NCBI RefSeq assembly: GCF_014252355.1
Contig: NZ_CP059217.1
Coordinates: forward strand, 62,001 to 126,000
Origin: Blattabacterium cuenoti
GTDB taxonomy: Bacteria; Bacteroidota; Bacteroidia; Flavobacteriales; Blattabacteriaceae
Direction: 5' to 3'
Length of the DNA: 64,000 nucleotides
Numbering within the stretch: position 1 is the stretch's first letter; every line of letters starts with the position of its first letter. This document shows, in pieces, positions 32,078-52,578 of the stretch. Made by a program: the position numbers and the translations under genes. Below the pieces are notes generated by a model. It saw only the letters and a program-made list of their open reading frames with translations. It made no database searches and was not told where the DNA came from.

Positions 32078-33685
32078 ATGATAAAAAAGTTAGTTATCCA
32101 TGCAGATGAACAAAACGTAAAAATAGCATTTTTAGAAAATGATAATTTATTAGAAATTCATATAGAAAATTTGAAAAAAGAATTTTCTGTTGGAGATATA
32201 TATTTAGGTATAGTTAAAAAAATATCTTATGGATTGAATGCAGCCATTATTGATATTGGATATTCAAAAGGAGCATTTTTACATTATAAAGATATATTAT
32301 TTCAATCTAACATTATTCTTAAAAAAAAGACACAATTAATAGAATCTTTTCATAATTATTTATTGTGTCATCACACTATAGAAGAAGAAGAAGAAGAAGA
32401 AGAAGAAGAAGAAGAAGAAGAAAAAAAAAAAAATTTTTATTCTATAGAAAATATATTACAACTTGGACAAAAAATTTTAGTACAAATTTCAAAAGAAGCG
32501 ATTTCTAATAAAGGTCCTAAATTAACTACCAAAATTTCTATTCCAGGAAAAAATTTAATTTTAATTCCTTTTTCTGAAAAAATTTATGTTTCACATCAAA
32601 TAAATAATTATAAAGAAAAAATTCGATTGATTTCTATTATTCAAAAACTTAAGCCAAAGAATTATGGAATTATTATTCGTACGGCATCCTATGCTATCAA
32701 ACATGATATTTTAAAAAGAGAATTATTCTTTTTAATAAGTAAATGGAAATCAATTTTAAATCAATTAATTAAATGTACATTACCAAATAAAGTATTTAGT
32801 GAATGTAGTAAAACTTATAGTTTATTAAGAGATATTTTAGATAAAAATTTCAAATATATTTATTGCAATAATTATTTTTTATGCCAAGAAATAAATTCAT
32901 ACTTATCATGGATACTACCAAAAGATAAGATCTTTATTAAATATTATGAAGGAAAATTGCCAATATTTAAAAAATATGGAATCACAAAAAAAATGCAAAA
33001 TTATCTAGGAAAACATGTTCCATTAAAAAATGGAGCTTACTTAGTTATTGAACATACTGAAGCATTACATGTAATAGATGTGAATAGTGGAATGATTAAT
33101 CATATACAAGATAATTTTCTAGAAGAATCAGACAGAATTGAAAATATAATTTTAAAAGTTAACCTTTCAGCAGCCACAGAAATTGCTAGACAACTTAGAT
33201 TAAGAGATATGGGTGGTATTATTATTGTAGATTTTATAGATATGTCAGATCCTTTTTTAAAACAAATACTTTATCATCATTTACAACAAGAAATGAAAAA
33301 TGATAAAGCAAAACATAAGATTTTACCACCAAATGAATTTGGAATAGTGCAATTCACTCGTCATAGAGTAAAACCTGAGTTCAAATATATAACAAACAAA
33401 AATACTATAACAGAATTAGAATATTCTCCTATGTTTTATATAAATCATATAGAATTTATTATAGAAACTATGATAAATAAAAAACGTAATAATAGAATAG
33501 AATTACATATACATCCTTTTGTAGCTGCTTATCTTAAAAAAGGATTTCCTTCTATTCAACAAAAATGGTTTTTTAAATATAAAAAATGGATTAAAATCAT
33601 TTCTAATATAATGTTTAAATATACAGAATATCAAATTTTTGATCAAAAACATAAAATTATTTTATCTTCTTTTAAAAGAAATTAA
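32078..33685 (+). CDS. rng: Ribonuclease G/E family endoribonuclease
   Basis: RNA processing and decay enzyme, 535 residues from ATG 32078; an in-frame TTG at 32045 would add 11 residues not matching the family. The S1-like domain has VGDIYLGIVKKISYGLNAA and IDIGYSKGAFLHY. The catalytic DNase I-like domain shows VIDVNSG and DMGGIIIVDFIDM with both metal-binding aspartates. The Zn-link cysteines of RNase E are not seen. Between S1 strands lies a run of 14 glutamates encoded by a perfect GAA repeat. Downstream of the HU gene and the small basic gene, likely one transcript. Confidence 0.93.
   Translation: MIKKLVIHADEQNVKIAFLENDNLLEIHIENLKKEFSVGDIYLGIVKKISYGLNAAIIDIGYSKGAFLHYKDILFQSNIILKKKTQLIESFHNYLLCHHTIEEEEEEEEEEEEEEKKKNFYSIENILQLGQKILVQISKEAISNKGPKLTTKISIPGKNLILIPFSEKIYVSHQINNYKEKIRLISIIQKLKPKNYGIIIRTASYAIKHDILKRELFFLISKWKSILNQLIKCTLPNKVFSECSKTYSLLRDILDKNFKYIYCNNYFLCQEINSYLSWILPKDKIFIKYYEGKLPIFKKYGITKKMQNYLGKHVPLKNGAYLVIEHTEALHVIDVNSGMINHIQDNFLEESDRIENIILKVNLSAATEIARQLRLRDMGGIIIVDFIDMSDPFLKQILYHHLQQEMKNDKAKHKILPPNEFGIVQFTRHRVKPEFKYITNKNTITELEYSPMFYINHIEFIIETMINKKRNNRIELHIHPFVAAYLKKGFPSIQQKWFFKYKKWIKIISNIMFKYTEYQIFDQKHKIILSSFKRN
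32381..32422 (+). repeat. Trinucleotide microsatellite (GAA)14 inside rng
   Basis: Fourteen perfect GAA units encode Glu14 and are followed at once by an A-rich stretch coding Lys3. It sits in the loop of the S1 region, which is variable in length in the family, so copy-number change should be tolerated in frame. Confidence 0.95.
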
Positions 33686-49215: not shown

Positions 49216-49268
49216 GATTAAATATTTTGAAATAAAAAATAATAAATGGATTAAATGATATAGTATTA

Positions 49269-49341
<73 letters not shown>

Positions 49342-49393
49342 ATTATTCAATATAATATTTTTTTTTTATAAAAAAAAACAAGATCCATACTAT

Positions 49394-50971
49394 CTATCCA
49401 TTCATCGAAATTAAAAATTCATCATTATTTTTAGTTTTTAACATACGTAATCTCAAAAATTCCATAGCTTCTATCGGATTCATATCAGAAAGATGTTTTC
49501 TTAAAATCCACATTCTTTGCAAAGTTTTTGTATCTAATAATAAATCATCCTTTCTAGTACTAGATGAAACTAAATCAATAGCAGGATAAATACGTTTATT
49601 AGCGATTTTTCTATCTAATTGAAGTTCTTTATTTCCTGTTCCTTTAAATTCTTCAAAAATAACTTCATCCATTTTTGATCCAGTATCAATCATTGCAGTA
49701 GCTATAATTGATAAAGATCCACCATTTTCTATATTTCTAGCAGCACCAAAAAATCTTTTTGGTCGATGTAATGCATTTGCATCTACACCTCCAGATAATA
49801 CTTTTCCAGATGCAGGAGCTACTGTATTATACGCACGTGCCAATCGTGTAATTGAATCCAATAAAATAACTACATCATGGGAACATTCTACCATTCTTTT
49901 AGCTTTTTGTAATACTATATTAGCAACTTTAACATGTCTTTCTGCTGGTTCATCAAAAGTAGAAGCGATAACTTCACCTTTAACATTTCTTTGCATATCT
50001 GTAACTTCTTCAGGCCTTTCATCAATTAACAAGATAATTAGATAAACTTCTGGATGATTTGCTGCAATAGCATTAGCAACTTCTTTTAATAAAGTAGTTT
50101 TACCTGTTTTTGGAGGAGCTACAATCATTCCCCTTTGCCCCTTACCAATTGGAGTAAATAAATCTACTATTCGTGTAGAAATAGTAGCATTTTTATCTGC
50201 TAATTTAAATTTTTCATTTGGAAATAGTGGAGTTAAATGTTCAAAAGAATCTCTTTCTCTAACAATAGTTAGTGGTCTACCATTAATTTCAACAATTTTA
50301 ATCAAAGGAAAATATTTTTCTCCTTCTTTTGGAGGTCTAACTTCGCCTTTTATAGTATCTCCAGTTTTCATTCCAAATAATCTAATTTGTGACTGAGATA
50401 CATAAATATCATCAGGAGATGACAAATAATTAAAATCTGAAGATCTTAAAAATCCATAATTTTCAGGCATAATTTCTAATACTCCTTCACTCATAATAAT
50501 ACCTTCAAATTCATAGTCAGGAGTTATATATTTATTAGTATGATTAGAATTTCTTGTAAAAAATCCTACATTATTATTTACAGATTTATTTTCTTTTACA
50601 CCAGATTTATTTTCTAAATTTTTTTTCCAATTTGAAAAATTTTTATTTTTATACTTCATTTTATCTTCTTGATTAGAAGAACTTAATTTATTTTTCAAAT
50701 TTAAGTTCTTGTTTTCATGTTCATGAAAATGTAAAAATGTTTTTCTATATTTATTTTTCTTTTTATTAACATCATTTGTTAATGAAGAATTTTCTATTTT
50801 TTTTAATTTTAAAGTTGATTTTGAAAAAGTTGAATTTTTATTAAAAATATCAATAATTTTTTCAAGGAGTTCGTTTTTTCGTAATTGTGTACATTTTTTT
50901 AATCCTGAAGAACGAGCAATCTCCTGTAATTCAAAAAGTTTTTTACTTTTTAATTCAGTAATATCAAACAT
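49394..50971 (-). CDS. rho: Transcription termination factor Rho
   Basis: Hexameric RNA helicase. I start at ATG 50969-50971 ([19 protein letters not shown]), giving 525 residues. N-terminal SAP-like domain, then a lysine/asparagine-rich insert of about 110 residues as in other Bacteroidota, then the RNA-binding fold ([20 protein letters not shown]). Walker A is [14 protein letters not shown], followed by [13 protein letters not shown] and [13 protein letters not shown], and the C-terminus keeps [13 protein letters not shown]. Divergent from the DUF4293 gene across a duplicated segment. Confidence 0.95.
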
Positions 50972-51025
50972 AAAGTAATTGGATAAAATTTTATTAATGA
51001 TTAAGTAAGATAAATACAATTATAC

Positions 51026-51153
51026 AAAATTAATTTGAACTTAATTCCAATTAATATGTTATCTAGAATACAAAATTTTTATACATTTATAAAAAATTAA
51101 TTTGAATTCCAACTAATATGTTCTGTAGAATACAAAATGTTTATACATTTATA
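51026..51153 (+). repeat. Tandem duplication covering the upstream region and first codons of the DUF4293 gene
   Basis: Copy 1 spans 51026-51091 and copy 2 spans 51093-51153. Both begin AAAATTAATTTGAA and end TTATACATTTATA. Copy 2 contains the real gene start (ATG 51118, codons MFCRIQNVYTFI); copy 1 contains the matching ATG 51056 with MLSRIQNFYTFI, then KN and a stop at 51098-51100. Copy 1 has five extra bases (CTTAA) before its ATG and a few substitutions. Copy 1 is thus a decayed duplicate and forms a 14-codon upstream ORF ending 17 bases before the real start. Confidence 0.92.
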
Positions 51154-51489
51154 TCATCTTTACTAATTTTAATTTCTATATTACTAAATTTTTCTTTTAA
51201 TATATTTTTTGATTTATTCTTGATTATATGTTTTATATTATCAGTTACTAGTATGTTATTTGACAAAAATAATAAGCTACAAATAATATTAAATATTTTA
51301 AATATTTTTTTTAACAGTTTAAATAGTATAATAATTTTGTTATTAACTTATTTGAATAAAAAATTAAATATTATTTTAATAAGTTATATACTGATTTTAT
51401 TATTATTTTCTATATTATTTTTATTTCTTTCAAATAAATCAATCAAAAAAGATATAAAAATAATTAAATCATCAAATAGAATACGATAA
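51118..51489 (+). CDS. DUF4293 family membrane protein
   Basis: 123 residues, four hydrophobic helices. The N-terminus FCRIQNVYTFISSLLI and the C-terminal NKSIKKDIKIIKSSNRIR match DUF4293, a Bacteroidota family usually encoded next to rho, as here. Function unknown. The sequence between is strongly simplified to Leu/Ile/Asn/Phe. Its 5' region, including the first 12 codons, is duplicated directly upstream. It ends 6 bases before prfA on the same strand. Confidence 0.82.
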   Translation: MFCRIQNVYTFISSLLILISILLNFSFNIFFDLFLIICFILSVTSMLFDKNNKLQIILNILNIFFNSLNSIIILLLTYLNKKLNIILISYILILLLFSILFLFLSNKSIKKDIKIIKSSNRIR

Positions 51490-51495
51490 TCAATC

Positions 51496-52578
51496 ATGAT
51501 TCAAAATTCATTATTGAATAAAAAATTTAAAATTCTTAAAAAAGAATTTGATACAATTTCAAAATCAATTTCTATTCCAAAAATTATATATGATAAAATA
51601 AAATATAAAACATTATTAAAACAATATAATAAAATAGACAAATGGATAAAATATTATCATGAATATAATAAAAAATTATCTTATTTACATGAGTTAAATG
51701 ATGTTTTAGAACATGATTCAGATCCAGAAATGATAAACATAGCATCTTCAGAAAAAAAAAATATATTAGAAGAAATAATGTCTATAAAAAACAAATTATT
51801 AAATAATAATTATTCATCACAAACATCACAAAATATAAATGATAATCATAGAAATGCTATAGTAGAATTACGTTCAGGAACTGGTGGAAATGAAGCATGT
51901 CTATTTGTTGAAGAAATATTAAGAATGTATATTATGTATTTTAAACAAATGCATTGGAAATATAAAATCATGCATGCTCAAAAAAGTGGATCCACAGGAT
52001 ATAAAGAAATTATATTAGAAGTAAGTGGCAGTAATAAGAAAGGTAGTGTTTATGGTAATCTAAAATTTGAATCTGGAGTACATAGAGTACAAAGAATTCC
52101 AAAAACTGAATCACAAGGTAGAATTCATACATCAGCAATTACTGTGGCAGTATTACCAGAAGTTCAAGAATTAGAAATGAAAATAAACATATCTGATATT
52201 AAAAAAGAAACATTTCGATCTAGTGGTGCTGGTGGCCAACATGTTAATAAAACCGAATCAGCAGTTAGACTAACTCATATTCCAAGTAAAATGACTGTTG
52301 AATGTCAAGAAGAAAGATCTCAACATAAAAATTTTGAAAAAGCTATGAATGTATTAAGAGCTAGATTATTCCAACAAGAACTGGATAAAAGATTTAAAGA
52401 AAGATCTTTTCAAAGAAAATGTTTAATCTCTACTGGAGATCGTTCTGTGAAAATAAGAACTTACAACTATCCAAAACAAAGAGTAACGGATCATAGAGTG
52501 AAAAAAACTATTTATGATCTTACAGGATTTATGAATGGAAATATTCAAAAAATGATAGATTTTTTAAAAAAAAAATAA
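51496..52578 (+). CDS. prfA: Peptide chain release factor 1
   Basis: Recognises UAA and UAG stop codons. 360 residues. The codon-recognition tripeptide region is RIPKTESQGRIHTSA (P-x-T type of RF1; RF2 would have SPF), and the catalytic loop is RSSGAGGQHVNKTESAVRL with GGQ. The N-terminal coiled region is full length. There is no in-frame UGA and no programmed frameshift, also consistent with RF1. Ends 4 bases before the convergent accC. Confidence 0.93.
   Translation: MIQNSLLNKKFKILKKEFDTISKSISIPKIIYDKIKYKTLLKQYNKIDKWIKYYHEYNKKLSYLHELNDVLEHDSDPEMINIASSEKKNILEEIMSIKNKLLNNNYSSQTSQNINDNHRNAIVELRSGTGGNEACLFVEEILRMYIMYFKQMHWKYKIMHAQKSGSTGYKEIILEVSGSNKKGSVYGNLKFESGVHRVQRIPKTESQGRIHTSAITVAVLPEVQELEMKINISDIKKETFRSSGAGGQHVNKTESAVRLTHIPSKMTVECQEERSQHKNFEKAMNVLRARLFQQELDKRFKERSFQRKCLISTGDRSVKIRTYNYPKQRVTDHRVKKTIYDLTGFMNGNIQKMIDFLKKK

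Follow-up and report, generated by a model that had tools for sequence, protein, structure and literature searches.

Several kinds of described systems resemble the locus reported here. Tandem duplications produced by replication slippage or by short-homology recombination consist of a head-to-tail unit bounded on each side by nearly the same short word, and such a unit lies at the start of a DUF4293 gene in the cockroach symbiont Blattabacterium cuenoti; the difference is that here it includes the start codon, so that a second gene start has been stranded upstream. In leader-peptide and upstream-ORF regulation a small ORF closes shortly before the main start, as one does at this locus, but its start, frame and spacing differ from one to the other of the two species that carry it, and no attenuator was seen. 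Reduced endosymbiont genomes also contain partial gene duplicates and pseudogene fragments, which share with our case the decay of a copied 5' fragment alongside a retained intact copy, although here the fragment holds only 36 coding bases and sits in tandem with its parent. In the Bacteroidetes, Shine-Dalgarno sequences are lacking and AUG is avoided near starts; bases such as A at -3 tune initiation in Flavobacterium johnsoniae, where fewer AUGs than expected lie within ~20 nt of starts (PMC6847099).

The DUF4293 gene (51118-51489, plus strand, within the window, the whole 64,000-nt stretch that was analysed, G000:C1:62001-126000) encodes a small hydrophobic protein, is intact, and matches Pfam PF14126 with an E value of 2.5e-9 and 38 bits against a curated cut-off of 27. 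It is flanked by the divergent rho gene for the transcription termination factor (49394-50971, minus strand; PF07497, PF00006, PF07498) and, downstream, by a prfA-like peptide chain release factor gene (51496-52578, plus strand; PF03462, PF00472). A tRNA-Met (CAT) gene at 49268-49342 on the minus strand lies directly upstream of an rmuC-like ORF, whose long TTG-started reading crosses the tRNA (MEQLVARRAHNPKVIGSSPIP); the true rmuC-like start should lie downstream of it. The repeat search places a tandem unit of ~67 nt at 51014-51080 (copy 1), comprising the DUF4293 leader and the first 12 codons, and a second copy head to tail at 51081-51153 (copy 2), whose position is also supported by alignment with 46 relatives. 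Near-identical words open the two copies (ATACAATTATA at 51014-51024 and ATACATTTATA at 51081-51091), and a third ATACAWTTATA word (51143-51153) forms the 3' end of copy 2. At a lag of 67 the leader parts (51014-51039 and 51081-51106) match over 26 nt with 92% identity, and at a lag of 62 the start and 12 codons (51032-51091 and 51094-51153) match over 60 ungapped nt with 85% identity; both lags are present because the copy-2 leader has a net 5-nt length difference, and the unit is therefore ~67 nt long. The two head-to-tail copies of the preliminary description thus stand, with a left end ~12 nt farther left than it had given. Copy 2 holds the real start (ATG at 51118, MFCRIQNVYTFI). Copy 1 holds a leader fragment, an ATG at 51056 and most of the 12 duplicated codons, leaving a probably non-functional mini-ORF at 51056-51100 (MLSRIQNFYTFIKN, 14 codons plus TAA at 51098-51100) that ends 17 nt before the real start; this ORF, and the three residue differences between the copies over the 12 codons, are exactly as first described.

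The duplication is genuine and far above chance. When the 567,420-base genome was scanned diagonally, in stretches, at lags of 30-300, it scored 37 (ungapped) and ranked 11th, and ten Markov-shuffled genomes gave maxima of 17-20, never above 20. All ten repeats that outscore it fall within open reading frames at lags that are multiples of 3, as expected for repeated protein segments. Among tandem repeats at these lags it is therefore the strongest outside in-frame coding arrays in the 567-kb genome, which bears out, for this genome, the earlier remark that such a structure is rare. It is absent from the Tandem Repeats Finder output, probably owing to the length difference between the copies. 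The genome holds other repeats of note. Long tandem arrays lie in ORFs at G000:C1:284692-285459, 344591-344840, 377291-377509 and 32400-32613 (units of 36, 54, 96 and 45 nt), so that repeat-rich proteins have been retained in a reduced genome. A second local partial duplication is found outside the window (L137; G000:C1:225777-225806 and 225949-225978), where a 30-nt segment internal to an smpB-like gene, so named from reading its translation only, recurs with 29 matching nt at a distance of 172 nt upstream, near the gene start.

The age of the DUF4293 duplication can be bounded by comparison across the genus, in which 47 of 49 genomes, this one (G000) included, have a DUF4293 match. Alignment of the rho-DUF4293 spacer, a check proposed in the preliminary description, finds the duplication in G000 and its sister species G013 only; the other 45 are single-copy at the same place. 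One of the two genomes lacking a match, G003, has a diverged but readable DUF4293 frame between rho and prfA. The other, G037 (L164), has there a DUF4293 remnant with stops and frameshifts, flanked by rho and prfA genes that match almost from end to end; loss of DUF4293 is thus possible within the genus. The DUF4293 proteins of G000 and G013 are 88% identical, and dN of 0.06 (dN/dS ~0.3) indicates that the gene is constrained by purifying selection. In a prfA tree of 30 genomes, G000 and G013 form a pair whose stem is long (0.61) and which is nested in a supported 13-genome clade; the event is placed on that stem. Synonymous divergence between the two is ~0.20 for DUF4293 and ~0.22 for prfA (the G013 locus, L002, is partly N, which makes its rho alignment unusable). 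Judged from these alignments, then, the duplication dates from the common ancestor of G000 and G013, before their split at dS ~0.2.

We propose, with a probability of about 0.82, that a single local tandem duplication was followed by drift of copy 1 as a neutral spacer relic. One ~67-nt unit was copied in the common ancestor of G000 and G013, probably by slippage during replication or by recombination at short homology, with ATACAATTATA in the leader and ATACATTTATA in DUF4293 codons 9-12 as the partners. The gene stayed whole behind copy 2, with a second start and 12 codons stranded upstream; copy 1 would afterwards have drifted like ordinary spacer DNA, any translation of the mini-ORF being a by-product. 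We infer both the exchange at the junction word and the absence of function. The junction words agree at 10 of 11 bases, which in AT-rich DNA is weak evidence alone; the second leader of G013 retains the join TTATAC-AAAA followed by AACTTAAT, which is what a join at the junction word predicts. Head-to-tail copies, the same end word and single-copy outgroups are all found here, as in short-homology tandem duplications generally, and recombination is kept as a possible mechanism because RecA is present.

The later history of copy 1 is what one might expect of a relic. In G013 its ATG has become ATA (L002:1411-1413) and a 5-nt insertion breaks its frame. Between G000 and G013, 3 of its 36 coding bases differ (plus the 5-nt indel) against ~10% spacer divergence, which gives no hint of constraint in a comparison of few sites and low power; a codon-rate test on copy 1 alone likewise has too few sites. 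Over the 26 spacers in the window that were compared with G013, mean identity is 90% and the median alignable fraction 95%; the rho-DUF4293 spacer (146 versus 242 nt, 60% alignable) is among the most indel-ridden of them. At codon 8, copy 1 has TTT (Phe), as do the nearest outgroups, and so keeps the older state, whereas the real gene now has Val or Ile. The preliminary description had argued that the duplication was either recent or held by selection. We favor neither: it predates the G000/G013 split, and copy 1 changes at the spacer rate and in the sister species has kept neither its start codon nor its original frame. Copy 1 is most likely a neutral, decaying relic, probably without a job.

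The best-surviving alternative, in our view still unlikely, is that the mini-ORF acts as an upstream ORF lowering or coupling DUF4293 translation, with initiation at 51056, a stop at 51098-51100 and a restart at 51118. The mini-ORF may be translated: its start context scores -0.28, close to the 0.07 of the real start, the two being similar because the copy-1 context was copied, and where Shine-Dalgarno sequences are absent and AUG is avoided near starts, an extra AUG could matter (PMC6847099). The copy-1 ATG, however, lies 62 nt upstream of the real start, outside the ~20-nt range of AUG avoidance. G013 too has an upstream ATG ORF: a different ATG and the 5-nt insertion produce an 18-codon frame (MQNIIQNFYTFIQKNFLT and a stop, L002:1414-1470) that rejoins the old one, with the shared core QNFYTFI, and ends 30 nt before the real start. 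The start codon, frame, length and distance (17 versus 30 nt) nevertheless differ between the two species, and only a handful of other genomes have any leader ATG, at varying places. Nor is the mini-ORF special: of 155 leaders of 100 nt in this genome, 33 (about a fifth) contain a closed ATG ORF that is at least 14 codons long, which makes such ORFs common, though some of the 33 may reflect misplaced starts or small upstream genes. The rejoined ORF in G013 and a run of 24 nt of copy 1 (ATACAAAATTTTTATACATTTATA) identical in both species are the only signs that favor a retained ORF, and either can be chance (about 1/3 for regaining the frame, ~0.08 for the unchanged run at 10% divergence). That a lineage-specific upstream ORF lowers or couples DUF4293-prfA translation where starts are selected without Shine-Dalgarno sequences, and was re-made in the sister by use of another ATG together with an insertion that restores the frame, seems to us more doubtful still. 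RNA folding gives weak local structure around either start, and in the longer leader parts of both copies are predicted to pair. The attenuation or translational coupling suggested at first thus loses ground on an unconserved start and frame; a side effect of copy 1 on DUF4293 translation is possible, but we have no positive evidence for one.

It is also conceivable, though quite improbable, that the duplication was kept because it separates or doubles the promoter elements from which rho and the divergently oriented DUF4293-prfA unit are transcribed. Nearly all genomes of the genus carry between rho and DUF4293 an element close to GATAAATACAATTATACAAAAAATTAATTTGAACTT; here it is the 34-nt GATAAATACAATTATACAAAATTAATTTGAACTT at 51009-51042, defined from alignments of 24 and 47 genomes, with TATAAT on the minus strand (the rho strand) ~50 nt before the rho start. 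It persists in part in G037 despite the degraded DUF4293. Apart from this alternative, the element is probably a promoter region that serves rho, perhaps in both directions and so possibly also DUF4293-prfA. Part of it (AAAATTAATTTGAA) falls inside the duplicated unit, and the leader is now 78-108 nt long, where most of the genus has roughly 40 nt. The doubled part, however, has decayed in G013 (AAAATTTTTTAACTTAAT), whereas the rho-proximal motif is unchanged over ~40 nt; a promoter consensus scan gave no promoter excess (1 found versus 4.7 expected); and upstream of genes neither TATAAT nor TAnnTTTG is commoner on one strand than on the other, so that motif enrichment does not settle orientation. 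In the literature collection searched by title and abstract, no publication on promoters of this genus was found. Of the earlier suggestion of a doubled promoter there remains that the segment lies in the divergent rho/DUF4293 spacer; the element itself is only partly doubled. Finally, that the copies resemble each other by chance in a highly AT-rich spacer, the objection the preliminary description had raised against itself, or are an assembly artefact, has a negligible probability, the first being rejected by the shuffled genomes (37 versus 17-20) and the second by the occurrence of this duplication, with changes of its own, in the independent genome G013.

Having weighed these alternatives, we regard the locus as a real, ancestral tandem duplication in decay, most likely neutral and ordinary in kind. 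A small duplication in a reduced genome has here been assigned to a single branch, and its decay can be followed along two routes in two species, in which the gene start has been retained and the spare has not. Greater importance would follow only from proof that the spare start is translated and alters DUF4293-prfA output. A better lead on how these symbionts regulate rho is the neighbouring genus-wide element.
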